Positions 1-14,482 of a stretch of DNA of 15,217 nt are shown one piece after another. This stretch comes from Syntrophomonadaceae bacterium (GTDB lineage: Bacteria; Bacillota_D; Dethiobacteria; DTU022). The translations under genes were made by a program, and so were the position numbers. Below the pieces are notes generated by a model. It saw nothing but the letters and a program-made list of their open reading frames with translations. It was not told the DNA's origin and did no database searches. The stretch is taken from positions 1 to 15,217 of the forward strand of contig PXFD01000044.1 of the NCBI GenBank assembly GCA_003564505.1. The letters are read 5' to 3'. Position 1 is the first letter of the stretch. Every line of letters begins with the position of its first letter.

Positions 1-774
1 CTATTCCTGGCCGGGATTGGACCGGGGATACTGATTTTTTTACTTTTCTCTCTCTACTCTTTTTTATACTCCAAGTACAAAAAGGTCGGACAGCTGCCCA
101 AGGCCAGCTGGAGCGAGAGAATTAAAGCAATCAAGGAAGGTTTACCGGTCATGGGCTTCCCGGCTATTATAGTCGGTGGTATTTATGCCGGCATTTTGAG
201 CCCGACTGAAGCGGCAGCCGCTGCAGTGGCTTACGCAATCTTTTTGGAGCTGGTTGTTTACAGGTGTCTGACAGTCAGCAGCCTGGTCGATAGTTTTTTA
301 CAGACCGGCGTAATAACAGGGGTAGTTTTTATCCTGGTAGGTGCCGGTCAGGGCCTTTCCTGGATGCTCAGTTTTTTAAGGATTCCCCAGCAAGTTTTAG
401 GGCCGCTTTTTGGGGCTGACCCCACTTATGTCACAGTAATTTTAATTATTGTTGTATCTTATTTTGTGGCCTGTATGTTTGTTGACCCCATTGTCGCTAT
501 TTATGTTTTGAGCCCCATTTTTGCACCTTATGTTATACAAGCTGGAGTTGATCCGATCCTGCTCGGGGTCCTGGTTACCCTGCAGGCAGCAATCGGTTCT
601 GCCACACCGCCTTTTGGGTGTGATATTTTTACGGCCCAGCTAATTTTCAGGCGGCCATATCTTGAAGTGATTGGTCATACGCCGCCGTTTATTATCATCT
701 TGATCCTGGTCACTATCATTCTTGTCGCATTCCCACAGATTGCCCTATTCCTGCCGGATACGGCTCTGCTGTAA
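1..774 (+). CDS. dctM: TRAP transporter large permease subunit (DctM-like), 5'-truncated by window edge
   Basis: Large membrane subunit of a tripartite ATP-independent periplasmic (TRAP) transporter, the part that moves a carboxylate-type substrate across the membrane using an ion gradient. The reading frame is open from base 1, so 257 C-terminal residues are visible, against about 425 in a full-length family member. Visible residues 59-80 carry the DctM signature GGIYAGILSPTEAAAAAVAY, and a later SATPPFGCDIF segment is also typical of the family. The rest is a series of long hydrophobic stretches. The solute-binding (DctP) and small permease (DctQ) genes are not in the window and probably lie upstream. 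The next gene starts 33 bases downstream, so co-transcription is likely and the imported compound is probably the substrate of the enzymes that follow. The family is clear; the substrate cannot be read from the sequence. Confidence 0.93.
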   Translation, partial: LFLAGIGPGILIFLLFSLYSFLYSKYKKVGQLPKASWSERIKAIKEGLPVMGFPAIIVGGIYAGILSPTEAAAAAVAYAIFLELVVYRCLTVSSLVDSFLQTGVITGVVFILVGAGQGLSWMLSFLRIPQQVLGPLFGADPTYVTVILIIVVSYFVACMFVDPIVAIYVLSPIFAPYVIQAGVDPILLGVLVTLQAAIGSATPPFGCDIFTAQLIFRRPYLEVIGHTPPFIIILILVTIILVAFPQIALFLPDTALL

Positions 775-807
775 TTTTAAAGTGACGATATTTAAGGAGG
801 ATGCAGC

Positions 808-1539
808 TTGATTTATAAGGCCCAGCCCGGACAGGTCAGTTATGGAGAGGCAATCGGCATACTGCTTCTTGACAGCAGCGCTCCCTATATTCCCGGGGAC
901 GTAGCTAACGCAACCACCTATAATTTTCCCGTTCGTTTTAAAAAGGTGCCCGGACTGACGGTGGAAAGAATATTTAACCATGACCTATCCCTTTTGGGTG
1001 GGGTTATCGCTGCAGCTCATGACCTGAAGCAAAATGGAGTGCGGGCTGTCACCGGTGATTGCGGGTTTATGGCTATCTACCAGCAAAGCCTGGCTGAACA
1101 ACTTGGTTTGCCGGTGTTTATGTCCAGCCTGCTGCAGGTTTCGTTTATCAGCTTGCTGCTTGGTGGTAAAGATAAGATTGGAATTCTTACGGCCAATGCG
1201 GCAGCTTTAAGCAGCGATGTACTGAAGTCCTGTGGAGCATACCTGCCCGAACGGACAGTAATTGCCGGCCTGGAGGACCAGCCCTGTTTCAGCTCTGCCT
1301 TTATAGAAGAAGCCGGCCAGCTGGATCAGGCTAAAGTTGAGGCGGAAGTTGTTAGCACGGCACTCCAGATGGTGCAATCAGATCCAGCATTAAAAGCACT
1401 TCTGCTGGAATGCTCTGTTTTACCTCCCTACGGGGCAGCAATTCAGCGGGCGGTAGGATTGCCTGTATTTGATTACGTCACAATGATTAATTACGTTTAT
1501 TCAGCCGTGGTCAAGAAGCGATTTAACGGTTTTATGTAA
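808..1539 (+). CDS. Aspartate/glutamate racemase superfamily protein
   Basis: A 243-residue protein of the Asp/Glu/hydantoin racemase superfamily, cofactor-independent enzymes that use two cysteines as acid and base. Cys85 lies in the first conserved block (TGDCGFMA), and Cys202 lies in LLLECSVLPPYG, matching the usual ECTxMPPY-type second block, so both catalytic cysteines are present. The start is TTG at 808, preceded by AAGGAGG at 794-800; the ATG at 801 is out of frame and stops after five codons. It lies between the TRAP permease and the M24 gene, so it may racemise or isomerise the imported compound or a hydrolysis product. Related families (arylmalonate decarboxylase, maleate isomerase, EutA) share the fold, so the reaction is not certain. 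It follows the TRAP gene by 33 bases and ends 114 bases before the next gene, in a gap that contains an inverted repeat. Confidence 0.82.
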   Translation: MIYKAQPGQVSYGEAIGILLLDSSAPYIPGDVANATTYNFPVRFKKVPGLTVERIFNHDLSLLGGVIAAAHDLKQNGVRAVTGDCGFMAIYQQSLAEQLGLPVFMSSLLQVSFISLLLGGKDKIGILTANAAALSSDVLKSCGAYLPERTVIAGLEDQPCFSSAFIEEAGQLDQAKVEAEVVSTALQMVQSDPALKALLLECSVLPPYGAAIQRAVGLPVFDYVTMINYVYSAVVKKRFNGFM

Positions 1540-1558
1540 AGTGAGCTGAATTTAAGAG

Positions 1559-1615
1559 TAACTAACCAGCCAAAAAACCTTCGAGAGCAGCTCTCTTTAT
1601 AAGGCTGGGTAGTTA
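1559..1615 (+). repeat. Long inverted repeat (RNA hairpin) between racemase-like and M24 genes
   Basis: The 5' arm TAACTAACCAGCC (1559-1571) pairs with GGCTGGGTAGTTA (1603-1615) at 12 of 13 positions. The enclosed sequence holds a second perfect stem, GAGAG (1583-1587) with CTCTC (1591-1595) around a CAG loop. No T-run follows, so this is not a classical terminator. It ends 27 bases before the AAGGAGGAGG ribosome binding site of the M24 gene. A processing or stability element, or a regulatory leader structure, would fit; which one is inference. Confidence 0.6.
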
Positions 1616-1653
1616 GATTAAATTTAGCAATTAGCTTTAATCAAGGAGGAGGA

Positions 1654-2838
1654 ATGCAGATGGGGGCAGTTTTTTCAGCTGATGAATATCTTCAGCGGAT
1701 AGGAAAAACAAAAGAGAGTATGAAAGAAAAGGGCATTGATTTACTGGTTATTTCCCAGCCTGCCAACATGAATTATTTGAGCGGCTATGATGGTTGGAGT
1801 TTTTACGTTCACCAGTGTTTGCTGCTGCACCTGGATCAGGAAGAACCGATCTGGCTGGGCCGGGGCATGGATGCCAACGTGGCCCGCCTGACCGCTTTTT
1901 TGTCAGAAGAGAATATCCTTGCATATGCTGATGATTATGTGCAGTCGACCGTAAAACACCCGATGCATTTTGTCGCAGATGTCATCAAGGAAAAAGGATG
2001 GGACAAAAGTGTAATCGGGGTGGAAATGGACCAGTTTTATTTTACTGCCCGTGCTTATGTTGAGCTGGAGCGTTCGCTCCCCGAGGCAAAAATTGCAGAT
2101 GGCAATGCCCTGGTTAACTGGGTCCGGGTTGTTAAATCTGAAGCCGAGGTCGAGTTTATTAGAAGGGCCGGTAAAATTGCCGAGAAAGTAATGGATGCAG
2201 CCCGGAATGCTATAAAAGTCGGGGCCAGGGAATGCGATGCGGCGGCAGCGGTTGCTTATGCCCAGTACGCCGGAACTAAAGAATACGCCGGTGATTACCC
2301 GGCAATAGTTCCCCTGATGATGGCCGGTGAAGAAACCAAAGCTCCGCATATGACCTGGACTGAAAAAGTTTACCAGGACGAAGAAGCAATCCTGCTTGAG
2401 TTGTGTGGCGCTTACAGGCGTTACCATGCTCCTATTGCCAGGACAATTTACCTGGGTAAAAATCCTCCCCGGCTGTTGCTTGATACGGCAGAGGTGGTCC
2501 TGGAAGGATTAAGTAAAGCCATGGATACGATCAGGCCCGGTGTGACAGCCGAAGATGTAGAGTCTGCCTGGCGTAAGGGTATTGCCCACTCTAAGGTAGT
2601 TAAGGAATCAAGAATTGGCTATTCCATCGGGGTTAATTACCCCCCTGACTGGGGTGAACAAACAATCAGTTTTAGGCCGGGAGACAAAACAGTGCTCGAG
2701 CCAAACATGGTGCTGCACCTGATTCCGGGCATCTGGTATGACGAAGTCGGTTTCGAAATTGACACTACTTTCAGGGTTACCGAAAACGGTTATGAATCTA
2801 TGTACGATTACCCGCTTGAGCTTTTTATTGAGGGATAA
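1654..2838 (+). CDS. Creatinase-like M24 (pita-bread fold) hydrolase, ectoine hydrolase DoeA/EutD-like
   Basis: Predicted cytoplasmic C-N hydrolase of the M24 'pita-bread' family: N-terminal creatinase domain (about residues 10-155), then the M24 domain (about 165-390). From recall it resembles DoeA/EutD, which open the ectoine ring, especially in GYSIGVNYPPDWGEQTIS (about 322-339) and the block LLELCGAYRRYHAPIART (247-264). Compared with metal-dependent aminopeptidases, the ligand positions are changed: the two Asp become Glu249 and Pro260, the His motif reads GYSIG, and the Glu of the EPG motif becomes Ile357. This points to metal-independent, creatinase-type chemistry; His232 in APHMTW is a candidate catalytic residue. 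Ribosome binding site AAGGAGGAGG is at 1643-1652. ATG 1654 is used here, but ATG 1660 has better spacing (7 bases). An Xaa-Pro peptidase label would be the generic alternative; substrate is unproven. Confidence 0.85.
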   Translation: MQMGAVFSADEYLQRIGKTKESMKEKGIDLLVISQPANMNYLSGYDGWSFYVHQCLLLHLDQEEPIWLGRGMDANVARLTAFLSEENILAYADDYVQSTVKHPMHFVADVIKEKGWDKSVIGVEMDQFYFTARAYVELERSLPEAKIADGNALVNWVRVVKSEAEVEFIRRAGKIAEKVMDAARNAIKVGARECDAAAAVAYAQYAGTKEYAGDYPAIVPLMMAGEETKAPHMTWTEKVYQDEEAILLELCGAYRRYHAPIARTIYLGKNPPRLLLDTAEVVLEGLSKAMDTIRPGVTAEDVESAWRKGIAHSKVVKESRIGYSIGVNYPPDWGEQTISFRPGDKTVLEPNMVLHLIPGIWYDEVGFEIDTTFRVTENGYESMYDYPLELFIEG

Positions 2839-2902
2839 TTTAAGATGCTGCTTAACGGGCTGACAAGGGCCCAATAATTACCATTTGAAGGGAGTAAGAG
2901 TA

Positions 2903-3751
2903 TTGTCTAAGAAAAGTGTTTTGGATTTTATTCAGATGAAAAAAGATGGAGAGAAAACGGCCTGGGTCACGGCTTACGATTTTCCTACAGCCATGTTTGC
3001 CGAGCAGGCCGGGATGGACATGATCCTGGTAGGAGATTCAATGGGGATGGTCCTTTTAGGCTACAAGGATACCATGCCGGTGACAATGGAAGACTGCCTG
3101 GCCCACTGCAAAGCGGTGCGGAGGGGGGCTCCCAAGACCTGGATTATTGGCGATATGCCCTTCGGTTCCTACCAGACCAGCGACGAAGATGCTGTCCGGA
3201 ATGCGGTGCGCTTTCTTAAAGAGGCCGATATGGATTGCATTAAGCTTGAGGGTGGCGTTCGGGTTGCCAGCAGGATTAAGGCTATCAACGATGCCGGGAT
3301 CCTGGTTATGGGTCACCTGGGTCTGACACCGCAGAGCTCGGGTCAGCTGGGTGGTTTCAAAGCTACCGGCCGTGATGTGAAAACAGCCCGGGCTTTAATT
3401 GAAGATGCCCTGGCCGTACAGGAAGCGGGAGCTTTCTCAGTTTTGATTGAAGCGGTTGCGCCCGAACTGACTGCCTTCCTTACTAAAAAACTGGATATCC
3501 CGGTTTACTCCATTGGCGCCGGTGTGGATTGTGATGGTCAGCTGCTGATTTGCGGTGACATGCTCGGTCAGTTCCAGGCTTTTACGCCAAAGTTTGTTAA
3601 AGTTTATGCTAATATTGCAGAAACCAGTGTAAATGCCTTTAAACAATACGTTTCGGAAGTAAAAAACGGCGAGTTCCCAACGGAAGAACATGTTTACCCG
3701 CGTAAGGATAGCATGGAAGATTTCGAGAAGCTTTTCGATGAATACAAGTAA
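2903..3751 (+). CDS. panB: 3-methyl-2-oxobutanoate hydroxymethyltransferase (PanB family)
   Basis: PanB transfers a hydroxymethyl group from methylene-tetrahydrofolate to 2-oxoisovalerate, giving ketopantoate for pantothenate synthesis; the reaction is reversible in principle. The 282-residue TIM barrel is slightly longer than the usual ~265. Conserved blocks are VGDSMGM with Mg ligand Asp45, IGDMPF with Asp84, KLEGG with Glu116, GHLGLTPQ (137-144), LIEAVAPEL with general acid Glu183, and SIGAG (203-207). All catalytic residues are therefore present. TTG at 2903 is preferred because GAAGGGAG (2887-2894) sits 8 bases before it; the upstream TTG at 2885 would place that site inside the gene. 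No panC or panD is nearby. Instead the gene lies 64 bases after the M24 hydrolase in a catabolic-looking cluster, so it may be a paralog acting on a related 2-oxo acid, possibly in the cleaving direction (inference). Confidence 0.9.
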   Translation: MSKKSVLDFIQMKKDGEKTAWVTAYDFPTAMFAEQAGMDMILVGDSMGMVLLGYKDTMPVTMEDCLAHCKAVRRGAPKTWIIGDMPFGSYQTSDEDAVRNAVRFLKEADMDCIKLEGGVRVASRIKAINDAGILVMGHLGLTPQSSGQLGGFKATGRDVKTARALIEDALAVQEAGAFSVLIEAVAPELTAFLTKKLDIPVYSIGAGVDCDGQLLICGDMLGQFQAFTPKFVKVYANIAETSVNAFKQYVSEVKNGEFPTEEHVYPRKDSMEDFEKLFDEYK

Positions 3752-3757
3752 ATATTC

Positions 3758-3819
3758 GTAGGCACCTTAAATGCGGCAGTTCCCTTAAAAGCTGGCGCAT
3801 AATAAGTGAAGGTGCCTGC
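3758..3819 (+). repeat. Multi-stem inverted repeat between panB-like and TIM-barrel genes
   Basis: The outer arms 3758-3768 (GTAGGCACCTT) and 3809-3819 (AAGGTGCCTGC) pair along their whole length with one T-G wobble. An inner stem ATGCG (3771-3775) pairs with CGCAT (3796-3800), and a short CAG/CTG stem lies inside that. No T-run follows, so it is not a standard terminator. It ends about 25 bases before the ribosome binding site of the next gene. It is probably an RNA structure in the cluster transcript; its function is unknown. Confidence 0.6.
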
Positions 3820-3860
3820 AAAGTAATAAAATATTTAAAAATAGATGGAGGTTGTTTAAA

Positions 3861-4799
3861 ATGTCATTTGAAAAGATTGAGAAGTATATCAAGGAGAAAA
3901 CTAACTTTCCGCTGCGTGATCGCTATGATCTGCCCAGCTCGGAAGTTACTTTCCCTGATGGCTCGCATTACCGCACCGAAATTGCCGGGATGGAAACCGT
4001 CGAGAATTTGGAGATCATGGTTAAAGAAGCAGAGAAAAGAAAAGTGCCCGTTCACCGGGTTATTTCCCTGGTCCGCGGTGCTGCGATGATGGACTTTGCC
4101 GAACTGAAAGAATTTGCCCAGGTTGCAGCCCAGAATAAACTCGAAGTTATCATCAACCCTCTGCCGAGCAGGGGCTGGGATAGCGGGCGGCAGTATGTAA
4201 CAGCGGAAGGCTATGTTTCCGGGATGCGCCTCAGGGGAAGCGATAAGGTTTATGAATGGCTAAAAGAGCTTGATCGCTGCCTTGAAGCGGGGATTCGCGG
4301 ATTCCTCATTCCTGACGAAGGCCTCCTTGACCTGGTCACCAAGATGCGGGCAGACGGTGTCTTTCCAGATGATGTTAAATTTAAGGTCTCTGTGTTTGCC
4401 GGGCACGGCAGCCCTTACGGGGCGAAACTATTGGAAGATATGGGTGCGGACAGCTTTAACCCGCTTGGTGACCTGACTCTGCCGATGCTTGCTTCAATCA
4501 GGAGCACTGTAAAGCTGCCTCTAGACATCTATGTAAGCCTGGTTGAATCCATGGGCGGCTTCCAGCGCTACCATGAGTGCGGCGATATTGCCCGTATTTG
4601 CGCTCCCGTATATTTTAAAATTGAACCGGGTCGTTCGGAAGCTGAAATGTACAATTCCTGGGTTGATAATGCCCTGCTTAACCACCTGGCTGCGCACAGG
4701 GTTAAAATTGCCCAGATTTGCATGGAATGGGTAGAACGCTCCGGGTACAACCTGGTGGTCAAAGAAGGCGGAGAGGATCTTTCCATTCCCAAACCTTAA
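3861..4799 (+). CDS. TIM-barrel-like protein of unknown function (possibly peptidase-U32-related)
   Basis: A 312-residue cytoplasmic protein that I do not recognise with certainty. Alternating hydrophobic strands and helices suggest a beta/alpha barrel: HRVISLVRG (65-73), KLEVIINPLPSRGWDSG (93-109), GIRGFLIPDEG (144-154), KFKVSVFAGHGSPYGAKLL (173-191), MGADSFNPLGDLTLPML (194-210), LPLDIYVSLVES (219-230) and PVYFKIEPGRSE (249-260). The ADSFNPLGDLTLPML block and the C-terminal EDLSIPKP resemble proteins annotated as U32-family peptidase-like, but that is from memory. There is no signal peptide or membrane segment. ATG 3861 has TGGAGG at 3845-3850 in front; the TTG at 3852 is too close to that site. 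It lies between PanB-like and dehydrogenase genes, so it is probably an enzyme of the same pathway, perhaps an aldolase- or lyase-type barrel (inference). Confidence 0.75.
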   Translation: MSFEKIEKYIKEKTNFPLRDRYDLPSSEVTFPDGSHYRTEIAGMETVENLEIMVKEAEKRKVPVHRVISLVRGAAMMDFAELKEFAQVAAQNKLEVIINPLPSRGWDSGRQYVTAEGYVSGMRLRGSDKVYEWLKELDRCLEAGIRGFLIPDEGLLDLVTKMRADGVFPDDVKFKVSVFAGHGSPYGAKLLEDMGADSFNPLGDLTLPMLASIRSTVKLPLDIYVSLVESMGGFQRYHECGDIARICAPVYFKIEPGRSEAEMYNSWVDNALLNHLAAHRVKIAQICMEWVERSGYNLVVKEGGEDLSIPKP

Positions 4800-4849
4800 A
4801 AAGACCTGAATTTAAACAGGGAGATATATCAGCAGAAAGGAATGATGGT

Positions 4850-6085
4850 ATGAGTGCAAACCCCCTGGATACGGCCCTGCATTCACTACGGGAAGCGGCG
4901 GAACTGGCCGGGCTGGATCCTAAAGTTATAGAACTTTTAAGCGTGCCAAAGCGAACCATAGAGTTTACCTTTCCTATGCGAATGGATAGCGGTGAAGTCA
5001 GGATTTTTAAGGCATACCGGGTTCACTGGTGTGATGCTCTTGGCAATTTCAAGGATGGTACCAGGTTTACCGGAAACCTTACTCTGGATGAACTCAAAGC
5101 CCTGGCCCTGTGGATGACTATTAAGCATGGTGTCGGCGGGATTCCTGCCGGCGGAGGTAAAGGCGGGGTGGAGGTTGATCCGGGAGAACTGAGTACCTGG
5201 GAACTTGAGAGGCTTTCGCGTAGTTTTATGCGCCACCTGCCGATGAAAGGTGCCTGGGTAGATGTGCCGGGTGCTGATATCGGCACCAGTGAACAGACTC
5301 AGGCCTGGATGCTTGACGAGTATGAACAAATTGTCGGCTATCACAGTCCGGCTGCTGTGAACGATAAACCTGCTGCCGTAAGCGGAACGGTCGGCAGCGC
5401 AGAGGCAACCGGACAGGGTGTATACTATGTTTTCGAGCAGGCTGTTAAGGACTTTGGCTTTGCCGAAGACTGCAGCGTAGCTGTGCAGGGTTTCGGTAAA
5501 GTGGGAGCGGTACTGGCCGGGCTGCTTCATGAAGGTGGTTACAGGGTAGTGGCGGTCAGTGATATCTACGGTGGTATCTATACTCCCGAAGGAATTGATA
5601 TTCCTAAGCTGCAAGAACATGTTCAAAAAACCGGCAAGGTCGTGGATTTTCCGGGGACAGATCCGGTTAGTAACGAGGAACTGCTGGAGCTTGATGCCGA
5701 TATCCTGGTTCCTGCTGCCGTGCAAAGCGTGATCGGTGAGGAAAATGCCCCGCGGATTAAAGCAAAGCTAATTATAGAAGCTGCAAACGGTCCGGTGACT
5801 CCCAAAGCGGAGCAGTACCTGCTTGACAAGGGCATACCGGTTATACCGGATGTGCTGGCCAATGTTGGTGGAGCGACGGTTTGCCACTTTGAGCGGATCC
5901 AGGGACTTACCGATGAGTACTGGGACCTGGAAAGAGTAAACGGGCAGCTCAAAGAGTGGATCTTGAAGGCCTACGATAAGATGTTAAAAACGGCCAAGGA
6001 GAAGGATTCCTCTTACCGTATGGCGGTATGGGTTAACGCCCTCTTGAAAATTGAAGCCTCCGTTAAAAAAAGAGGCTGGGTTTAA
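4850..6085 (+). CDS. gdhA: Glu/Leu/Phe/Val dehydrogenase family protein (divergent glutamate dehydrogenase)
   Basis: NAD(P)-dependent amino-acid dehydrogenase, interconverting an amino acid with its 2-oxo acid and ammonia. It has 411 residues, normal for the family. The N-terminal substrate domain keeps Lys68 (NFKDGTRF), Lys92 (WMTIKHG) and catalytic Lys104 in GGGKGG (101-106), plus the Asp of DVPGADIGT. The Rossmann domain carries EATGQG (185-190) and GFGKVG (214-219), followed by a C-terminal DVLANVGGATVCHFE block. The usual GGIRFHP stretch reads DGTRFTGN, and other conserved places also differ, so the preferred substrate may not be glutamate. The start is ATG 4850 with AGAAAGGA 8 bases before it; the frame is open further upstream, but that part overlaps the preceding gene. 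It lies 50 bases after the TIM-barrel gene and before a terminator-like hairpin. Likely role: recycling nitrogen or supplying a 2-oxo acid. Confidence 0.88.
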   Translation: MSANPLDTALHSLREAAELAGLDPKVIELLSVPKRTIEFTFPMRMDSGEVRIFKAYRVHWCDALGNFKDGTRFTGNLTLDELKALALWMTIKHGVGGIPAGGGKGGVEVDPGELSTWELERLSRSFMRHLPMKGAWVDVPGADIGTSEQTQAWMLDEYEQIVGYHSPAAVNDKPAAVSGTVGSAEATGQGVYYVFEQAVKDFGFAEDCSVAVQGFGKVGAVLAGLLHEGGYRVVAVSDIYGGIYTPEGIDIPKLQEHVQKTGKVVDFPGTDPVSNEELLELDADILVPAAVQSVIGEENAPRIKAKLIIEAANGPVTPKAEQYLLDKGIPVIPDVLANVGGATVCHFERIQGLTDEYWDLERVNGQLKEWILKAYDKMLKTAKEKDSSYRMAVWVNALLKIEASVKKRGWV

Positions 6086-6100
6086 GAAGAAACATCTCCG

Positions 6101-6151
6101 GCATATCTGCGCCTTGTTTTCAAAACAAAGCGTAGATATGCTGAGTTTTTT
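6101..6151 (+). terminator. Terminator-like hairpin with T-run, directly before the EutB-like gene
   Basis: The arms 6101-6120 and 6122-6141 are complementary at 18 of 20 positions, plus one G-T wobble and one mismatch. The hairpin is followed four bases later by six T (6146-6151), the layout of an intrinsic terminator. The next gene starts only 17 bases after the T-run, which leaves no room for a promoter in between. Either the promoter of the next gene lies upstream inside the dehydrogenase gene, or this element works as an attenuator that partly limits read-through. Confidence 0.75.
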
Positions 6152-6168
6152 CTAAGAGGTGGTCTGAT

Positions 6169-7191
6169 TTGCGCGAAAGCAATTTCCCCGGATCTTTTCT
6201 TACAGGAACAAGCGAGATCTGGAAAGCGAGGCAGAGGATTGCCGGCCTGGTAGAAAGAACACCCCTGGTTATGAATTCCGCCCTTAATGATTTATTCGGG
6301 GCGAAAATATATCTAAAGCTCGAGTATTTGCAGCCTACAGGCGCATTTAAATTACGTGGAGCGGCTAACAAAATCCTCAGTTTGAAGGAAGAAGAAAGGC
6401 AGCGTGGTGTTGCCACCTTTTCTACAGGCAACCATGGTCTTGCTGTAGCCTATGTGGCAAAACAGCTTGGCATTCCGGCAGCAGTTTTTATTTCCCGTCG
6501 TGTGCCCCAGGTAAAGGCAGATAATTTGCGCCGCATGGGTGCTAATCTTGTTGTGCATGGTGACAACCAGGATGATGCAGAAGAATTCTGCTTCAGGAAG
6601 GCAGGCGAAGAGGGCTGGAATGTTATTAACCCCTTTGATGATCCCATGGTTATTGCCGGACAGGGTACCATCGGCCTTGAGCTATTAGAGCAGGAGCCGG
6701 AACTCGATACAGTGGTTGTGCCATTGTCAGGGGGAGGACTGATATCTGGAATAGCACTGGCCCTTAAAATAAATCAACCAGATCTGCGTGTGATCGGCGT
6801 TTCTATGGAAGGCAGCCCGGTAATGTATCACTCTCTAAAAGCTGATAAGCCGGTTGTGCTAAAGGAGAAAGATACCCTGGCAGATAGCCTGCTGGGTGGG
6901 ATCGGACTTGATAATAAATATACTTTTTCCATCGTAAAAGAATATGTTGACGATGTTGTCCTGGTTAGTGAAGAGGCAATCGCGAAGGCAATGGCTTTGT
7001 TTTTTAAAGTAAGTCGTGCCGCGGTTGAAGGTGCCGCGGCAACCCCGGTTGCCGCTCTGACGGAACATCAAGTGGCGTCCCGGGGCAGAAAAACGGCTTT
7101 GATCATTACCGGAAACAATATTGACAGCTTTAACTTTTTAAATGTTGTCGGGAAATATATAGAACCGGAAAAGGGGTATAATAATGATTAA
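6169..7191 (+). CDS. eutB: PLP-dependent threonine dehydratase-like enzyme, EutB-like
   Basis: Fold-type II PLP enzyme of the threonine/serine dehydratase family: it eliminates water from a hydroxy-amino acid to give an enamine/imine that hydrolyses to a 2-oxo acid and ammonia. Lys61 in TGAFKLRGA is the PLP Schiff-base lysine, STGNHG (85-90) binds substrate, and SGGGL (187-191) binds the cofactor phosphate. The 340 residues lack the ACT regulatory domain of biosynthetic IlvA. The stretches FDDPMVIAGQGTIGLELLE, GIGLDNKYTF and DDVVLVSEE closely match what I recall of EutB, the hydroxyectoine-utilisation dehydratase. The start is TTG 6169 after AAGAGGTGG. The gene overlaps ridA by 8 bases, implying translational coupling. 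Threonine dehydratase or serine racemase remain alternative labels. Family assignment is firm; the EutB substrate is inference. Confidence 0.88.
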   Translation: MRESNFPGSFLTGTSEIWKARQRIAGLVERTPLVMNSALNDLFGAKIYLKLEYLQPTGAFKLRGAANKILSLKEEERQRGVATFSTGNHGLAVAYVAKQLGIPAAVFISRRVPQVKADNLRRMGANLVVHGDNQDDAEEFCFRKAGEEGWNVINPFDDPMVIAGQGTIGLELLEQEPELDTVVVPLSGGGLISGIALALKINQPDLRVIGVSMEGSPVMYHSLKADKPVVLKEKDTLADSLLGGIGLDNKYTFSIVKEYVDDVVLVSEEAIAKAMALFFKVSRAAVEGAAATPVAALTEHQVASRGRKTALIITGNNIDSFNFLNVVGKYIEPEKGYNND

Positions 7192-7573
7192 TAAAGAAAC
7201 GATTCATCCGGAAAGTGCGCCCATACCGGCCGGTCCTTATTCACCGGCTTTGAAAGTTGGCAGTATGGTTTTTGTTAGCGGCCAAACCCCTGAAAAGCCT
7301 GGCAGCGATGAGCTGGTTGATGGTGGAATCAGGGAGCAAACAGTTCAGGTTATGGAAAACATTAAAAATATCCTGGCAGCCGCCGGCTGCACCATGGATA
7401 ACGTGGTCAAGGTTAATGCCCACCTGCTTGATATAAATAACTTTGGTGAGTACAATGAAGTATACAAGACTTATTTTAATAAGCCATATCCAGCCCGGAC
7501 TACGGTGCAGAGTATTATCCCCGGTGGAGGTCTGGTTGAAGTAGACGTAGTTGCCATGCTGCCGGAAGATTAG
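7184..7573 (+). CDS. ridA: RidA family reactive enamine/imine deaminase
   Basis: RidA hydrolyses the reactive enamine/imine intermediates released by PLP-dependent dehydratases, protecting other PLP enzymes and speeding release of ammonia and 2-oxo acid. At 129 residues it is a typical single-domain member and would form a trimer. Visible family features are AGPYSPA (16-22) with Tyr19, VSGQTP (31-36), Arg105 in YPARTTVQ, which anchors the substrate carboxylate, and Glu119 in LVEVDVVA near the C terminus. The ATG at 7184 lies inside the end of the EutB-like gene, in another frame; this 8-base overlap couples the enzyme to the source of its substrate. It is the last gene of the catabolic cluster; an 85-base gap without obvious signals follows. 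Confidence 0.95.
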   Translation: MINKETIHPESAPIPAGPYSPALKVGSMVFVSGQTPEKPGSDELVDGGIREQTVQVMENIKNILAAAGCTMDNVVKVNAHLLDINNFGEYNEVYKTYFNKPYPARTTVQSIIPGGGLVEVDVVAMLPED

Positions 7574-7658: not shown

Positions 7659-10190
7659 ATGGTAGGGATTAATAAGCTAAGCTTGCTTAAGAGAAAGCAA
7701 GACCCGTGTACGGTTGATAAGATTAAAGCGAGCAGGTGGCTGAAATTACCTTCGCATATCCTGGGGGTTTTAATGCTTGGGGTTGTTTCCCAGGTATGTC
7801 AGGTTATTTTCTTTCGTGAATTTCTGATGGTTTTCCACGGTAATGAAATGACCTTTGGCTTAATCCTTTCCGCCTGGCTGTTCTGGGTTGGTTCCGGCAG
7901 CCGCCTGGCAGGCAGCCTTGCGAAAAGGCTGGACAAGCCGGTTGAACATTTCTTGCTGAGTACCACTGCTCTTTTCATCATGGCGCCCCTGAGTGTTTTA
8001 ATGATCCGTAACCTGCGGGCATACTTCGATTTGCCTCCCGGCGCCTACCTTTCCCTGCTTGATCTTTTTATTGCTACCTTTATCATAACTGCCCCTGTTT
8101 GCCTGCTGCTGGGAGCACAATTTGTTTTTTTGGCCAGGATCTGGCGGGAATATGAACATTCGATAGATACTTCAGGAGCAGGGAAGACCTATATTGGTGA
8201 AGCAGCAGGTAACTTTACGGGTGGTCTTTTATTCACTTTTATACTCGTTCACATACTCAACTCTTACCAGTCTGCTGTATTGGTAACCTTCTTAATTTTT
8301 GTAGCAGCTTTGGTTGTGCGCATGGCAAAAGTTTACAGGAGAGATAAACTGTCTCTGCTACCTTTAATAATGATAATTTTGTTTGTAACGGTCCTTGCAG
8401 CTTTTCCCCTGCTGGATAGGCTTGATCGATGGTCTTACGATTTACAGTGGCATAATTTTTCTCCCCAACATGAACTGATTGGCACTTATAATTCAAAGCA
8501 TGGCAATATTGCAGTATTGGAGCTTGACGAGCAATATACTTTTTTTCAAAGCGGCAACCTGGTCTTCAGCACCGCTGGTCGCGAGACGGCTTTAGCCGGA
8601 TTAGAAGAACAGGATGCTGTGGAGTTTGCCCACATGGCTATGGTTCAGCACCAGTCGCCGGAAAAAGTTCTGCTGATTGGCGGAGGGATGCGCGGAACAT
8701 TAGCTGAAATTATAAAGCATCCGGTAAGCCGGGTTGATTATGTTGAGCTTGACCCGGCCCTGATTGAAGCGGCGGAGCCATTTGTTTCTTTTGCGACCCT
8801 AAAAGCGTTGGAAGATACCAGGGTAAATGTGATTCACACGGACGGCAGACTTTATGTAAAAACCACGGATCAAAGTTATGACTTAATTATCGTGGATGTT
8901 CCAGACCCTGCTACTGCAGTGCTGAACCGTTTTTATACCAGGGAGTTCTTTGCCGAAACAGGAGCCCTGCTTGAGTCCGACGGAGTTTTCGTTACAGGAA
9001 TAGTGTCAACCCCTGATCTGCGGGGCAGGGCGGTTGCAAACCGCAATGCTGCTGCTTATCACACCCTGGACCAGGTTTTCGAGCATGTTATGCCTGCAGG
9101 AGATCATTTCCTCTATCTCTTTGCCGGTAAAAGCAGACAGCATGTTTCACTTGATCCGGTCCTGCTGGCAGAACGATACCTGGAAAGGGGTATATCTACA
9201 GAAGGGTTTTCTGCTCAACATTTTCAAACTATCCTGGAAGAAACCCAGCTGCGCAGGGTAAACTGGACCCTGCGCAATCACGGACGGAGCAGCGCTGCAC
9301 ATCTCGATGGTCCCGGCAGGCAGCCTATGCTGCTGCCCACTATTGAAGAGCAAAAGGTTGAACAGGGATCTTTGCCTCCCGTACAGGAGCGGTATTTTAT
9401 TAACACTGACTTCAGGCCTATCGGGTATTATTATTCCCTGATGTTTTGGGATGACCTGACTCGGGGAGATCGCCCGAAATCTTTTGCTCCCCTTATCCAG
9501 GTCCAGGCCTGGTGGATTTTACCGCTGCTCATTCTGCCTTTTGCTGTTTTACTGATGGCAGGCAGGTTGGGGAAGGCAAGCCGTATTAAAGGTCCGGCCA
9601 GCTTTGCCGTGCTTTTTGCTGTTTTTTCGACCGGTCTTTCTACCATGGCCCTGCAGGTTGCCCTGCTTTTTTCTTTTCAAAGTGTTTACGGCTTTGTTTA
9701 TGAAATGGTAGGGCTGATTACAGCACTTTTTATGATCGGCCTGGCCGGCGGTGCTTACCTGGTTAATCGCTATATCAGGGATAAGGGCAGGCTGCAGCTG
9801 CTTGCGACAGTGCAGATGGGTATAGCCCTTTTATCCCTGGCAATTGCCCTGCTGCTGCCACTATCTGCCAACCTGGTTGAGCCGGTGTTGATCTTTATAT
9901 TTTTTTCAACTCTAACATTATTTGCCGGTGCCATAAACGGGATTGACTTTCCCCTGGCCATGGCTTGTTATCAAAACCTGGTAAAAGATGCTGATAAAAC
10001 TGCAGGCAAAGTTTACGGTTTGGAGCTTTTTGGGGCCTGTCTTGGGGCACTTTTGGCCAGTATCTTAATCGCTCCCATTTTAGGCATTGCTGCCTGTGCT
10101 ATGCTGGCCGCTCTTGTCAATGCTGCTGCTTTTATGGTACTTTTAATAGGGAGGAGGGTCGATCGGTTATGCTGCAGTGGAACAAGCTGA
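7659..10190 (+). CDS. Integral membrane protein with a spermidine-synthase-like domain
   Basis: An 843-residue three-part protein: N-terminal transmembrane block (about residues 30-255), a Rossmann methyltransferase-like domain related to spermidine synthase (about 275-510), and a C-terminal transmembrane block (about 620-835). In the middle domain VLLIGGGMRGT (341-343 = GGG) is the nucleotide-binding loop, followed by YVELDP, YDLIIVDVPDP with Asp413 and Asp416, and FYTREFF. The usual GGGDGG loop reads GGGMRG, losing an Asp that helps bind substrate in true spermidine synthases, so polyamine synthesis is doubtful. YIGEAAGNFTGGLLFTFIL in the N-terminal block is a family feature. ATG 7659 follows GGAGTG by 8 bases. 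The gene overlaps the next one by 22 bases, pointing to shared work with the radical SAM protein. Often annotated as fused MFS/spermidine synthase; the actual reaction is unknown. Confidence 0.87.
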   Translation: MVGINKLSLLKRKQDPCTVDKIKASRWLKLPSHILGVLMLGVVSQVCQVIFFREFLMVFHGNEMTFGLILSAWLFWVGSGSRLAGSLAKRLDKPVEHFLLSTTALFIMAPLSVLMIRNLRAYFDLPPGAYLSLLDLFIATFIITAPVCLLLGAQFVFLARIWREYEHSIDTSGAGKTYIGEAAGNFTGGLLFTFILVHILNSYQSAVLVTFLIFVAALVVRMAKVYRRDKLSLLPLIMIILFVTVLAAFPLLDRLDRWSYDLQWHNFSPQHELIGTYNSKHGNIAVLELDEQYTFFQSGNLVFSTAGRETALAGLEEQDAVEFAHMAMVQHQSPEKVLLIGGGMRGTLAEIIKHPVSRVDYVELDPALIEAAEPFVSFATLKALEDTRVNVIHTDGRLYVKTTDQSYDLIIVDVPDPATAVLNRFYTREFFAETGALLESDGVFVTGIVSTPDLRGRAVANRNAAAYHTLDQVFEHVMPAGDHFLYLFAGKSRQHVSLDPVLLAERYLERGISTEGFSAQHFQTILEETQLRRVNWTLRNHGRSSAAHLDGPGRQPMLLPTIEEQKVEQGSLPPVQERYFINTDFRPIGYYYSLMFWDDLTRGDRPKSFAPLIQVQAWWILPLLILPFAVLLMAGRLGKASRIKGPASFAVLFAVFSTGLSTMALQVALLFSFQSVYGFVYEMVGLITALFMIGLAGGAYLVNRYIRDKGRLQLLATVQMGIALLSLAIALLLPLSANLVEPVLIFIFFSTLTLFAGAINGIDFPLAMACYQNLVKDADKTAGKVYGLELFGACLGALLASILIAPILGIAACAMLAALVNAAAFMVLLIGRRVDRLCCSGTS

Positions 10191-11368
10191 CCAGGGAAGT
10201 AGATCGGCGCCTGATTCTAAAAGCCGGTGCTTATGGGGCCTGTGCATTTTGCCTTGCCTCTGTAGGAGGCTGTGCGCTTTTTAGGGATAAGGCAGAAGAT
10301 GTTCCTGCAGATCCGGAAGATGCGGCTATGCCTGACGACGCCCGCAAAGGCTTGATTAAGAGGGAACCTTCACCCTGGTTTAGTAAGCTTGAAGGAGGAC
10401 ATGTCCGCTGTGAACTTTGTCCTAAAGCCTGTGAACTGGCGAAAGGCGAAAGGGGGCTTTGCCGGGTTCGTGAAAACAGGGACGGTGAAGGTTACACCAT
10501 GGTTTATGGCAACCCGGCCCTGGTGCAGGAGGATCCTGTTGAACGCAAACCTTTCTTCCATGTTTTGCCCGGTAGCAGGGCGCTATCAGTTTCTACTGCA
10601 GGCTGCAACCTGGCCTGTAAGTTTTGTGAAGTATGGGATATGGCCCTGGTTAAACCGGAAGATGTCCACGCTTACGATATGCCTCCCGAAGCAATTATCG
10701 ATTATGCCCTGACTGCAGGGTTGCCGGCGCTTAGCTATGCCTTTGGAGAACCTGTGGTGTTCTATGAATACATGGACAGCCTGTCCGCAAAGGCAAAAGA
10801 GCATGGGCTCCTTAACCTGATGCATACAGGAGGTTATATCAATGAAGAGCCGCTGCGGGCTATCGCTGAAAAAATCGATGCTGTTAACTTTGATTTAAAA
10901 GGTTTCAACGAGGAATTTTACCGGGAATATGTTGGTGGAGAACTTGATAATGTCTTAAAGAGTTTAAAGATTTTGCATGAGGCAGGTGTCCATATCGAAA
11001 TAACCAATATAGTTATCCCTACTGTTAATGATGATCCCGGGGAAATTAGTGAGATGTGCAGATGGATTGTAAGGGAGATTGGCCCTGATGTTCCGCTGCA
11101 CTTTGCCCGCTTTTATCCGCTTTACCAGCTTTCAGGACTGCCCCGTACTCCTGTTTCAACCCTGGAGAGGGCCCGCGAAAAAGCCCTCGAAGCAGGCCTG
11201 CATCACGTTTATATCGCCAAGGTAACAGGCCACGAAGCTGAAAACACCTTTTGCCCGGAGTGCAAAGAGAAGGTGATCAAAAGAGTGGGGTTCGTGATTG
11301 AAGAAGTGCATCTTGACCGGGGCAAGTGTGCTTTTTGTTCGACTCAATTGCCCGGTTTATGGGGCTAA
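10169..11368 (+). CDS. amrS: AmmeMemoRadiSam-type radical SAM protein with Tat/lipoprotein-like N terminus
   Basis: Radical SAM enzyme of the AmmeMemoRadiSam (AmrS) family, 399 residues. Cys146, Cys150 and Cys153 (CNLACKFC) bind the [4Fe-4S] cluster. An N-terminal set (Cys81, Cys84, Cys88, Cys98) and a C-terminal CPEC...CAFC pair are typical of the family and could bind further metal. The first 35 residues are unusual: DRRLILKAG (12-20) resembles a Tat twin-arginine motif, followed by a hydrophobic stretch and VGGC with Cys35 as a possible lipoprotein cysteine, then an acidic linker. This suggests export or membrane anchoring, odd for a SAM-dependent enzyme. The start ATG 10169 lies inside the membrane-protein gene, after GGGAGGAGGG, so the two are translationally coupled. 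The AMMECR1 and MEMO partners are not seen. Family is clear; substrate and true location are unknown. Confidence 0.88.
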   Translation: MLQWNKLTREVDRRLILKAGAYGACAFCLASVGGCALFRDKAEDVPADPEDAAMPDDARKGLIKREPSPWFSKLEGGHVRCELCPKACELAKGERGLCRVRENRDGEGYTMVYGNPALVQEDPVERKPFFHVLPGSRALSVSTAGCNLACKFCEVWDMALVKPEDVHAYDMPPEAIIDYALTAGLPALSYAFGEPVVFYEYMDSLSAKAKEHGLLNLMHTGGYINEEPLRAIAEKIDAVNFDLKGFNEEFYREYVGGELDNVLKSLKILHEAGVHIEITNIVIPTVNDDPGEISEMCRWIVREIGPDVPLHFARFYPLYQLSGLPRTPVSTLERAREKALEAGLHHVYIAKVTGHEAENTFCPECKEKVIKRVGFVIEEVHLDRGKCAFCSTQLPGLWG

Positions 11369-11383
11369 ACTGTGCTTAATTGC

Positions 11384-12484
11384 TTAATCAAGACTGCGGC
11401 GGTGAAGATCCAGCTGGGCGAGTGAACGCTCATCCAGGTTGGTCAGGCCGGCTTCTTTAGCCCAATCCATTGCTTCCACGTACTCTTCAGATGTAATGGC
11501 CCTGGCGATTTCTTCATATTCAAATGCTTCAAACTCTACACGATACTGTGACATAATATTTACATAGGTATCTTTAGAAAGATTTTCAGCCACCCAGTAA
11601 GCGAAATCTTTAGGATTAGAAACCCGGTTGGGCATTACCAGGTGGCGGATCATTAAGCCGCTTTTAGCTATACCTCTTTCATCGGTGACAAGATCACCAA
11701 CCTGATTGTGCATTTCAATGATTGCTTCTTTTGTTTTCTCGGGATAATCGTAGGCCCTGGCCATGTTGAAACGCTCTGCCTTTTCACCATCCATAAATTT
11801 AAGGTCCGGCAAATAAATATCAACAATGCCTTCCAACATTTTCACTGTTTCAACTTCTTCATAACCGCTGGTGTTGTAGCAAAGGGGGATTTCAAGCCCT
11901 TTTTCAAAAGCTATTTTTGTTGCTCCGATAATATTAGGCAGGACATGGGTAGGAGTTACCAGATTGATATTATGGCAGCCGTTATTTTGTAAATTAAGCA
12001 TCATTTCTGCAACTTCTTCATCACTGGCTTCACTTCCCCAGCCATGATGAGCGATGGGATAGTTTTGGCAGAAAACACAGCGCAGGTTGCAGTTGGAGAA
12101 AAAGATAGTTCCGGAACCATTATTGCCTACCAGGGGCAGTTCTTCACCAAAGTGAGGCTGATGACTGTAAACCACGGCATTTTTTGGAGCCTGGCAGAAG
12201 CCTCTTTCACCGGCATTGCGATTTACACCGCAGTGCCGTGGGCAGAGGTTACAGTGATTGAAGATATGGTAAAACTGCTCAACCCTTTCTGCCATTTGCC
12301 CATTTGCAGCCAATGTTGCGTAGGCTGGCTGCCAGGAAGCAGGCTGGTCCTCATGGTTTTCATCAGGCACTTCTTCCAGCGGGCTGCAGGCATTAAGCAG
12401 CATTGAACCACCGGCCAGACAAAATAAACCGGTTCCGCAATATAAGCAGCCTTTTTTTATAAATTCCTTACGAGTTAAAGCCAT
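11384..12484 (-). CDS. PflA/PflX-like radical SAM protein (COG1313 type) with lipoprotein-like N terminus
   Basis: A 366-residue radical SAM protein. Cys132, Cys136 and Cys139 (CNLRCVFC, followed by QNYPIAHHG) bind the [4Fe-4S] cluster, and an upstream set (Cys78, Cys81, Cys85, Cys97) matches uncharacterised PflA-like proteins. The conserved TPTHVLPNI and YLPDLKFMD segments fit that family. The N terminus reads TRKEFIKKG (a weak Tat-like motif), then a hydrophobic stretch ending in the lipobox LNAC (30-33), so it is predicted to be a membrane-anchored, possibly exported, lipoprotein. ATG 12484 is preferred over GTG 12493 because AGGG lies 8 bases in front. It is the second gene of an operon, 18 bases after the baeRF7-like gene, and it converges on the other radical SAM gene with a 15-base gap. 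Its substrate is unknown. Confidence 0.86.
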   Translation of the reverse strand: MALTRKEFIKKGCLYCGTGLFCLAGGSMLLNACSPLEEVPDENHEDQPASWQPAYATLAANGQMAERVEQFYHIFNHCNLCPRHCGVNRNAGERGFCQAPKNAVVYSHQPHFGEELPLVGNNGSGTIFFSNCNLRCVFCQNYPIAHHGWGSEASDEEVAEMMLNLQNNGCHNINLVTPTHVLPNIIGATKIAFEKGLEIPLCYNTSGYEEVETVKMLEGIVDIYLPDLKFMDGEKAERFNMARAYDYPEKTKEAIIEMHNQVGDLVTDERGIAKSGLMIRHLVMPNRVSNPKDFAYWVAENLSKDTYVNIMSQYRVEFEAFEYEEIARAITSEEYVEAMDWAKEAGLTNLDERSLAQLDLHRRSLD

Positions 12485-12502
12485 CAGAATCACCCTGTAA
12501 TG

Positions 12503-13660
12503 TTACCAGCGGAAAATTGCCGCTGCCGGAGCTGTATCCGGCATGTGTTCATGATCGAGCGCATAAACGCTACCATTGTTGGCAAAGCTTTTAGCAGCTG
12601 CCAGGTCAACTAAGTCTTCGCTTCCGGTTTTCTGTTCGTCATAAAGGCTGATATTTTCATTTTCCGGGTCATAGGAGCCCCACTGTTGGAGGCCGGTTGT
12701 TACAAAGAGATCGCTGATTCTGCCGTGATATGAAGCAGGTAAAATTTCCAGTATGTCGTTTGATGTTTTGCCTGTGCCTTTAAGCTCATGGTACCTGGCT
12801 TTGGCTTCTTCCTGCTTTTGCTGGAAGTATGGTTTAACAATCTCCCAGGCTTTTTCATGTAGATCATGGCTATTTATATTTTCAGGGTTTCCTTTAATTG
12901 TTTCTTCGAATAAAAGAGGGTGTTTATTGCTGGCTCTATATAGAGGCGCCAGGTAGTCGACACAGGCTAAAATTATCGGGGCATTCTTATTGCCGATTAA
13001 ATCATGGATCTCCCTGTCTATAAAGCGGAAATATTTAAGCAACCTTTCTTTTTGTATGCTGTCGATTTCTCCACCATGCCCGAAGTATATTGCTGAGCGA
13101 ACATTTCCTGAACCAGGTGCCCCGGGATGAAATTGCAGGTATTGTTCCGGCAGTTCTTCCCCGAACTCAGATTCGAACCGCTCAATGACCTTGCTTAAAT
13201 CCATTTCTTCAATTGTACCCTGGGTGCCGCGCAGCAGGCGGGCATCTTTTTGGCTGAGGGCCAGTATATAGAACAGGCCATCAGATGAGAGCAGGGGGAA
13301 TAGAGGTTTTAAATGAAAAGATCTTCTTACAACTGCCCGCTCTGTAAACTTTACAGGCAAACGGTAGTAGCGGGAAAAACCGTTGGTCAAAAAATAGGCC
13401 AAACCTTCACTCTGGTTTGCCCAGTAGATACTCTCACTGAGCATTTTTTTCGCCGGCTCGAGAAGAGAATCCTTGTTTGAATGGTGAAGTCCACGGTCTT
13501 CCAGCTGTTCTTCTATTTTAGAAAGCAAGTTTTTAAAGCGGATAGAGTTTTCTTTAGCCCTCTCCCGCCCCTTCTGGGTGGGCATGTAAATTGAAATGCA
13601 GGTTTCTTTTTCACTCTGGGTTAAAAGTAATTCCATTTCTTCCTTATTTAAAAGTTCCAT
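12503..13660 (-). CDS. baeRF7-like protein (bacterial release-factor-related family)
   Basis: A 385-residue soluble protein of the baeRF (bacterial archaeo-eukaryotic release factor homologue) group, most like family 7. These proteins are distant relatives of eRF1/Pelota and are proposed to act on ribosomes or in stress; no function is proven. Matching features are CISIYMPTQ (21-29), the block of residues 81-104 with GLAYFLTNGFSRYYRLP, FHLKPLFPLL (115-124), QFHPG (176-180), GHGG (194-197), LACVDYLAPLYR (231-242), AYxxLKGTG-like helix (about 285-297), YHGRISDLFV (311-320), and the C-terminal TAPAAAIFRW. No GGQ tripeptide is present; GHGG might lie in the corresponding loop (inference). Start ATG with AGGAGG ahead, behind a leader of about 120 bases. 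It is first in an operon with a radical SAM gene and divergent from UspA genes, suggesting a stress role. Confidence 0.83.
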   Translation of the reverse strand: MELLNKEEMELLLTQSEKETCISIYMPTQKGRERAKENSIRFKNLLSKIEEQLEDRGLHHSNKDSLLEPAKKMLSESIYWANQSEGLAYFLTNGFSRYYRLPVKFTERAVVRRSFHLKPLFPLLSSDGLFYILALSQKDARLLRGTQGTIEEMDLSKVIERFESEFGEELPEQYLQFHPGAPGSGNVRSAIYFGHGGEIDSIQKERLLKYFRFIDREIHDLIGNKNAPIILACVDYLAPLYRASNKHPLLFEETIKGNPENINSHDLHEKAWEIVKPYFQQKQEEAKARYHELKGTGKTSNDILEILPASYHGRISDLFVTTGLQQWGSYDPENENISLYDEQKTGSEDLVDLAAAKSFANNGSVYALDHEHMPDTAPAAAIFRW

Positions 13661-14440: not shown

Positions 14441-14482
14441 GGCAATAAATAGTCAGTAATATATTAAAAGGAGTGAACTTTT

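Follow-up and report, generated by a model that had tools for sequence, protein, structure and literature searches.

A conserved operon of anaerobic bacteria with a predicted fermentative route from ectoines to pyruvate and a folate-bound one-carbon unit

Gene content of the locus

We analyzed a stretch of 15,217 nucleotides from a Syntrophomonadaceae bacterium (GenBank assembly GCA_003564505.1, contig PXFD01000044.1), called the window in the following. The list of its open reading frames (ORFs) shows eight ORFs, all on the plus strand and in series over positions 1 to 7573 (Table 1). These are the large permease of a tripartite ATP-independent periplasmic (TRAP) transporter, a racemase-like protein of a superfamily which we take to include EutA, a DoeA/EutD-type M24 hydrolase, a PanB-like protein, a triosephosphate-isomerase (TIM) barrel protein, a glutamate dehydrogenase (GDH)-like enzyme, an EutB-like pyridoxal-phosphate (PLP) dehydratase, and RidA. 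Pfam and NCBIfam bear out seven of the eight family names, the exception being the TIM-barrel protein. An earlier sequence-only reading of this DNA had listed the same eight genes, with which the ORFs and family scans agree; the GDH-like gene, which it called divergent, is so in sequence, not in strand.

The host is probably an anaerobe, and the eight genes belong to an operon that is kept across anaerobes. We read this operon as a fermentative pathway for ectoine and 5-hydroxyectoine whose new lower half, GDH-TIM-PanB, would yield pyruvate and methylene-tetrahydrofolate (methylene-THF), with diaminobutyrate (DABA) as intermediate; we put the probability of this reading at about 0.65. Ectoines are major solutes of saline waters. 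If true, the reading would explain how anaerobes live on ectoines, provide a likely substrate for an enzyme family without any model, turn PanB, the emblem of vitamin synthesis, into a catabolic enzyme releasing one-carbon (C1) units, and constitute a natural counterpart to a pathway built by synthetic biologists.

Table 1. Operon genes of the window, gene orders in three relatives, and further clusters discussed in the text.
Locus	Positions	Strand	Feature	Evidence or remark
Window	1-774	+	TRAP large permease DctM	PF06808, 187 bits; 5' end cut by window edge
Window	808-1539	+	Asp/Glu-racemase-superfamily protein, PRK07475 family	NF005679, 284.6 bits, above cut-off 231
Window	1654-2838	+	DoeA/EutD-type M24 hydrolase, predicted ectoine/hydroxyectoine ring opener	TIGR02993, 471.4 bits
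Window	2885-3751	+	PanB-like protein, predicted catabolic THF hydroxymethyltransferase	PF02548/TIGR00222, above cut-off
Window	3861-4799	+	TIM-barrel family without name, predicted to make the PanB substrate from 4-amino-2-oxobutanoate	ATG start; TTG at 3852
Window	4850-6085	+	ELFV (glutamate dehydrogenase family) amino-acid dehydrogenase, predicted DABA dehydrogenase	PF00208/PF02812
Window	6169-7191	+	EutB-like PLP dehydratase, predicted 3-hydroxy-DABA ammonia-lyase (hydroxyectoine branch)	NF005680, 411.2 bits, cut-off 413
Window	7184-7573	+	RidA, predicted hydrolysis of enamine/imine from EutB	TIGR00004, 134.8 bits, above cut-off 106.25
L125			Order fhs-fchA-folD-PanB-TIM-GDH-IclR-M20-DctP-DctQ-DctM-race-M24-EutB-RidA
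L070 (Halanaerobium)			Order PanB-TIM-GDH-M24-GntR-RidA-EutB-M24-DctQ-DctM-M20-DctP
L036 (Moorella)			Order IclR-GDH-formamidase-TIM-PanB-M24-DctP-DctQ-DctM-race-M20-RidA-EutB-M24
L166	9598-17229		Alternative Halanaerobium-class ectoine cluster	Predicted DABA gamma-lyase replacing GDH-TIM-PanB
L168	9451-17140		Alternative Halanaerobium-class ectoine cluster	As L166
L167	9125-16707		Alternative Halanaerobium-class ectoine cluster	As L166
L106	7876-12742		Clade PanB beside IlvD-type dehydratase and LarA-type racemase
L104	8567-10609		Clade PanB beside Fe-alcohol dehydrogenase
L118	9752-15339		Clade PanB beside Fe-alcohol dehydrogenase and 3-oxo-tetronate kinase	Kinase above cut-off
L107	8963-13282		Clade PanB beside FMN hydroxyacid dehydrogenase
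L115	4688-6920		Clade PanB beside class III aminotransferase
L112	8766-11804		Clade PanB in another catabolic neighbourhood

Conservation of gene content and order

A scan of GTDB contigs with an alignment of the TIM-barrel family gave 73 loci, 72 of them with a TIM match in the ORF search; ORFs below 80 aa were ignored for the locus clusters. The hosts comprise many sediment metagenome-assembled genomes, whose labels denote soda-lake samples, as well as Alkaliphilus, Anoxynatronum, Halanaerobium, Moorella, Geosporobacter, Bipolaricaulota, Chloroflexi and Asgard archaea; Tindallia is also among the anaerobes carrying the conserved operon. One contig labelled Ectothiorhodospiraceae (L060) holds TIM and GDH genes 76-87% identical to those of the window, which is probably a binning error.

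The triad PanB-TIM-GDH (same strand as TIM, with PanB at most 1.5 kb and the GDH-like gene at most 2.5 kb away) is present in 34/72 TIM loci, i.e., its order is not due to chance. Among the 50 loci flanked by at least 1.5 kb on both sides, PanB is found within 1.5 kb in 32, GDH in 28 and both in 27. When at least 8.5 kb are available on both sides (17 triad loci), M24 is present in 15, DctM in 12 and EutB in 8. The gene set is kept while its order is reshuffled across lineages (L125, L070 and L036 in Table 1). Two close relatives of the window (L005, L056; TIM identity 86-87%) show M20-DctP-DctQ-DctM upstream, with IclR preceding M20 in L005. The sequence-only reading had proposed a search for co-occurrence of the M24, PanB-like and TIM-barrel genes, and relatives do hold them jointly.

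An ectoine-type front end

The best model for the M24 hydrolase is DoeA/EutD (TIGR02993), with the best peptidase model at 91 bits, and its nearest relative in the PDB is DoeA (6twk, 378 bits; prolidase 92). In 6twk numbering, the window protein and 31/31 cluster homologues have a glutamate at E255, presumably the residue with the covalent role in DoeA, and a proline at 266, where prolidase has a metal-ligand aspartate. The motifs GYDGWSFYVHQ and GDYPAIVP are retained with small exceptions. That is, a DoeA-type active site is present, with the glutamate in place and the prolidase metal ligands replaced.

The solute-binding protein DctP was compared with solved structures for one protein from each of two lineages. 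The nearest are 3fxb (175 bits), 2vpn/3gyy (171) and 4pfi (170) for the first, with the next at 130, and 4pfi (241), 3gyy (200), 3fxb (199) and 2vpn (191) for the second, with the next at 119; we take 3fxb to be UehA and 2vpn/3gyy to be TeaA. A candidate for the deacetylation is the M20 protein, which in L012 reaches 282 bits with DoeB2 (cut-off 550) and 356 bits with a general amidohydrolase model, above the cut-off of the latter. EutB (NF005680, cut-off 413) is the best model for the EutB-like protein, with 411.2 bits in the window, 411.0 in Alkaliphilus and 429.9 in Halanaerobium. EutB-RidA follow GDH in the window, L002 and L007 and are absent from this place, ahead of the next gene, in L001, which fits an accessory branch.

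Canonical EutC and EutE exceed their cut-offs in 0/28 relative genomes. Below the cut-off, EutC matches occur in 17/28 (best 269 vs. 472 bits) and EutE matches in 5/28; EutC-type ones also appear in 10/14 control genomes. Neither a DABA aminotransferase nor a semialdehyde dehydrogenase was noticed in the triad clusters, for which no genome-wide search was made.

Given these results, we consider an ectoine-type front end very likely, and ectoine and hydroxyectoine themselves the most likely substrates. This is in accordance with the sequence-only reading as far as M24 groups with DoeA and not with peptidases, and as far as the dehydratase looks EutB-like rather than like an ordinary threonine dehydratase (EutB being the top model and the Halanaerobium orthologue above cut-off). 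Of the genes that it listed as missing, eutC and eutE are above cut-off in none of the 28 relative genomes, and the M20 candidate for the deacetylase lies just upstream in L005 and L056. Where it suggested a "related but different" pathway for some nitrogen-containing carboxylate, ectoine or hydroxyectoine itself is made more likely by DoeA motifs, a UehA/TeaA-like binding protein, EutB and RidA together. Another N-acyl or cyclic amidine solute, handled by a DoeA paralogue of new specificity, thus appears improbable, even if the M24 score stays below the TIGR02993 equivalog cut-off (471.4 vs. 613 bits; two orthologues 494 and 463) and triad loci such as L015 and L068 have no M24; the host names (Halanaerobium, Alkaliphilus, Anoxynatronum) likewise point to saline or alkaline habitats and hence to ectoines.

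Exchangeable back ends behind one front end

Within the 59 genomes of the Halanaerobium class, TIM is found in 12, the DoeA-like M24 in 15 and both in 11, i.e., M24 accompanies 11/12 TIM genomes vs. 4/47 without TIM (one-sided Fisher p=5e-8, kinship ignored). In the twelfth TIM genome (G346), the contig ends beside TIM. A draw of 291 genomes from the Alkaliphilus class, including the centre genome, holds TIM in 2 and M24 in 3, with M24 in both TIM genomes; these carriers are too few for statistics. The Moorella class, searched for M24 only, has a match in 1/22, which is the centre genome itself.

Three Halanaerobium-class genomes with M24 and without TIM (G331, G335, G336) have a methionine-gamma-lyase-like PLP enzyme of Cys/Met metabolism beside M24, M20 and TRAP. 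The assignment is based on 545 bits in G331, on Pfam in G335, and on position and length only in G336. A phosphotransacetylase is additionally encoded in G331, with a gene of similar size at the same place in G336; the fourth genome with M24 and without TIM, G354, has a contig of 9.8 kb. No EutB match was found in the examined stretches of L166 and L168. A further back end is seen in G164 (Alkaliphilus class, no TIM), with an aldehyde dehydrogenase after the front end and two BhcA/PhnW-like aminotransferases before it, within 6 kb. We also tried EutC as a marker to tell the back ends apart, which failed given that no genome, whichever its back end, exceeds the cut-off.

From DABA, gamma-elimination of ammonia gives 2-oxobutanoate, while transamination and oxidation give aspartate; this chemistry is known for the respective families. 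We infer that both alternative back ends start from DABA, such that the triad, which occupies the same slot, most likely consumes DABA as well; this fits DABA as the branch point. The exchange of modules makes this role of DABA directly testable.

The proposed GDH-TIM-PanB lower half

The GDH-like protein matches its family and stays well below the listed equivalog cut-offs of GDH (at best 395 vs. 750 bits). We counted residues in the 37 sequences longer than 380 aa, including that of the window. The two catalytic lysines and the aspartate are kept in 37/37. Within the pocket, the S380-type position has become cysteine (36/37), the tryptophan of FEW arginine (36/37), and the glycine after the gamma-carboxylate lysine (G90-type) aspartate or asparagine (36/37). 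We take K89 and S380 (Clostridium symbiosum numbering) to be positions of the glutamate side-chain pocket, and the roles of the other GDH residues are assumed likewise. The pocket changes argue against plain glutamate as substrate; a role as DABA dehydrogenase is predicted.

With 311 bits, the window PanB exceeds the panB cut-off of 207.55. Of 66 sequences, the residue comparison covers 43 from the cluster clade and 9 canonical ones, with 14 intermediate or unassigned ones set aside. Presumably catalytic residues (Y25, D45, S46, D84, K112, E114, H136, E181) are kept in 43/43 cluster-clade PanBs. In the pocket, I200 is replaced by Y in 43/43, G201 by S in 41/43 and V152 by A in 43/43 (E. coli numbering). 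The cluster PanBs form a clade separate from the E. coli, Mycobacterium and Neisseria proteins and from the canonical PanBs that six of the genomes with PanC encode. While PanB is found in 23/23 genomes searched, PanC is present in 10 and absent in 13; the Geosporobacter genome, titled complete, has PanB and no PanC. In nine of the ten PanC genomes, a PanB falls outside the cluster clade (a canonical one in six, an additional one in yet another clade in three), the exception being G019 (L037), in which PanC is present and PanB solely cluster-type. Because PanC is missing in 13/23 and the clade is separate, we rejected pantothenate synthesis as the role of the cluster PanB, with G019 and G021 as exceptions.

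These data also bear on an ordinary aspartate route for ectoines, in which PanB would take part in pantothenate synthesis and the GDH would recycle glutamate. The window alone shows no lower pathway, and its PanB passes the panB cut-off, as this explanation would have it. It is nevertheless very hard to maintain given the PanC distribution, the altered GDH pocket, the linkage to fhs and folD (see below) and the fact that an aspartate-type back end was found in a genome without TIM (G164).

At E 0.001, the TIM-barrel protein hits no model of Pfam or NCBIfam. A sequence search returned 751 related proteins at this threshold; the 120 listed have no Pfam domain and are, where a name is given, called "hypothetical", "uncharacterized" or, for one Moorella entry, "Peptidase U32". 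The AlphaFold2 prediction is a TIM barrel with a mean pLDDT (predicted local distance difference test) of 86. TIM adjoins amino-acid dehydrogenases, including a second kind in L105, whereas PanB without TIM goes with hydroxy-acid genes (Table 1). We thus propose that the TIM-barrel enzyme would swap an amine for a hydroxyl. The TIM-less PanBs of the clade are 65-98% identical to their best cluster match, and a common substrate of the 4-hydroxy-2-oxobutanoate type would explain their contexts. One L106 PanB is 98% identical to its best match from an ectoine cluster, so its reaction should be the same. Aldehyde ferredoxin oxidoreductase is also among the catabolic neighbours of these PanBs. Bipolaricaulota loci such as L050 and L058 have a TIM homologue (~50% identical) next to an S58 peptidase and a glutamine-synthetase-like gene, in some cases together with PanB.

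The work could also be divided differently within the same pathway, i.e., PanB may act directly on 4-amino-2-oxobutanoate (retro-Mannich reaction, with methylene passed to THF and ammonia released), leaving another step to TIM (hydroxy-DABA, an isomer, or a role as partner protein). The fold alone allows no catalytic assignment, and TIM and PanB are adjacent in L054, L058, L061, L062, L069 and L072, where the examined stretches, some of them short, show no GDH, M24 or EutB match. We regard this division as possible, if rather unlikely, since the TIM-less PanBs beside hydroxyacid dehydrogenase, Fe-alcohol dehydrogenase, tetronate-kinase-like and IlvD-type genes lead one to expect a hydroxy substrate.

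Linkage to folate one-carbon genes

We located formate-THF ligase (fhs) and FolD in 30 TIM genomes. In 8/30, fhs shares contig and strand with TIM at a distance of at most 15 kb (G003, G010, G011, G013, G292, G008, G012, G023), and folD is linked in five of these (G003, G010, G011, G013, G292). In G003, fhs is in broken pieces beside an intact folD. For G008, G012 and G023, the contig ends within fhs immediately after the cluster, leaving 30 residues and a score below cut-off in G023. In G322, fhs is the last gene of a contig on which the latter half of the cluster lies. PanB comes directly after fhs, an fchA-like gene (177 bits; cut-off 275) and folD in L125 and L026. G006 and G353 have no fhs at all. 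In the four Halanaerobium-class M24 genomes without TIM, fhs sits at a distance of 0.5 Mb or more (G335) or on a different contig (the others). That is, fhs linkage is repeated in several lineages and not universal. As folate genes lie inside several clusters, methylene-THF is the likely output, and the retro-aldol transfer onto THF suggested by the sequence-only reading gains support from context. In Alkaliphilus peptidifermentans (L012, 6681-7487), a broken formate-THF ligase stands directly before folD and PanB, and two other intact copies exist in the genome.

Proposed pathway

From gene content, synteny, motifs, module swaps and fhs/folD linkage, we infer the following reactions and substrates, of which the TIM step is the weakest. 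Ectoines would be imported by the TRAP transporter and opened by M24 to N-acetyl-DABA or its 3-hydroxy form, from which M20, encoded upstream and outside the window, would remove acetate. The GDH-like enzyme would then deaminate DABA at C-alpha to 4-amino-2-oxobutanoate. In the hydroxyectoine branch, EutB (dehydration/deamination) and RidA may produce the same compound from 3-hydroxy-DABA, which would explain why EutC is not needed. The TIM-barrel enzyme would replace the 4-amino group by a hydroxyl, releasing ammonia, and the PanB-like enzyme, working in catabolic direction, would cleave the resulting 4-hydroxy-2-oxobutanoate to give pyruvate and 5,10-methylene-THF. The C1 unit could then be turned into formate and ATP by FolD/FchA and formate-THF ligase, whose genes several relatives have in the same cluster. 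Synteny, motifs and folate linkage are thus consistent with the earlier overall scheme of import, hydrolysis, deamination and retro-aldol cleavage onto THF.

On a wider claim our judgment is evenly balanced, namely that this is a natural amino-acid fermentation in which ectoine-derived DABA is converted to pyruvate and a folate C1 unit by a PanB-derived transferase after the TIM step, and that the PanB clade serves anaerobes generally as a catabolic enzyme for C1 release, also employed for sugar acids and hydroxy acids, with energy gained via FolD and formate-THF ligase.

Several observations weigh against the proposed pathway. Beside the M24 score below cut-off, M24 is absent from 2/17 well-flanked triad loci, and the M24 of G331 has an in-frame stop. 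The M20 of L012 scores higher with the carboxypeptidase CpsA (400 bits, cut-off 500) than with DoeB2, both below their cut-offs. The gamma-carboxylate lysine of the GDH-like proteins stays K (27) or R (10) in all 37, where a purely amine-binding pocket predicts otherwise. In Geosporobacter (L019), TIM is ~9 kb from PanB with no GDH-like match nearby; in G021 (L039), TIM and GDH are adjacent while the sole PanB is canonical and located elsewhere, beside PanC. Remote TIM relatives occupy other contexts, and fhs-TIM linkage is missing in 21/30 TIM genomes, including G001, a near relative of the window. Finally, 4-hydroxy-2-oxobutanoate was proposed as PanB substrate from gene context and from an engineered PanB route, and two reviews, in their accessible parts, couple this compound with an aldolase, not with PanB.

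Relation to known systems

The operon shares TRAP import, a DoeA/EutD-type M24, EutB, a racemase-superfamily protein and an expected deacylation with the proteobacterial eutABCDE-ssd-atf/doeABCD systems (Ruegeria, Halomonas, Vibrio). Here, in contrast, EutC and EutE are not found above cut-off, M20 takes the place of EutE, GDH-TIM-PanB (plus fhs/folD) stands in for aminotransferase and semialdehyde dehydrogenase, RidA is added, and the regulators are IclR/GntR. Compared to PanB of pantothenate synthesis (ketopantoate hydroxymethyltransferase), the cluster enzyme shares family model, catalytic residues and expected THF chemistry, while it differs in its clade, its pocket (I200Y/G201S/V152A), its catabolic neighbours and its occurrence in genomes without PanC. 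Work by Bouzon et al. in 2017 reportedly engineered E. coli to convert homoserine via 4-hydroxy-2-oxobutanoate to pyruvate and methylene-THF with PanB. The proposed PanB reaction and product are the same as in this synthetic route; here, the operon is natural, the substrate an amino compound and the TIM-barrel enzyme extra.

The closest printed account, judged from its accessible part, is a 2026 survey in AEM (Applied and Environmental Microbiology; PMC13188858), which describes different gene sets for Bacillales and regards its Gram-positive clusters as unexpected and tentative. Its putative Bacillales clusters (pucR-eutBCD-atf, abgB-thrA-adh) resemble the operon in Gram-positive hosts, a deep-branching EutD, an amidohydrolase (abgB) and EutB, but keep eutC, atf, thrA and adh. 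The putative Thermodesulfobacteriota clusters of the survey (9-13 genes, usually two eutD, no eutE/ssd) are similar to the Halanaerobium and Moorella clusters, which have two M24 genes and no eutE, and may overlap with the operon described here. The available main text makes no mention of panB, hydroxymethyltransferase or glutamate dehydrogenase. According to passages of PMC8739950, the exact activities of EutABC are unknown and a rapid conversion of hydroxy-DABA to DABA was inferred.

Within open-licence full text of PubMed Central, to which our statement on novelty is confined, we found no paper describing a fermentative ectoine route and none on 4-amino-2-oxobutanoate. The same holds for papers joining 4-hydroxy-2-oxobutanoate with ketopantoate hydroxymethyltransferase, ectoine hydrolase with hydroxymethyltransferase, or diaminobutyrate with methionine gamma-lyase and ectoine.

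Genes behind the operon

Positions 7659-12493 of the window hold a membrane-like protein with a spermidine-synthase domain and two radical S-adenosylmethionine (SAM) genes, the second of them on the opposite strand. The spermidine-synthase-domain gene and the first radical SAM gene also adjoin the operon in L001 and L003. They are followed by a protein of the bacterial archaeo-eukaryotic release factor (baeRF) family on the minus strand (12503-13660). Two tandem paralogous ORFs of 146 aa (14000-14923), which to us resemble universal stress proteins, lie more than 6 kb behind the operon. The Ruegeria ectoine cluster also holds a usp gene, as stated in the accessible part of PMC8739950.

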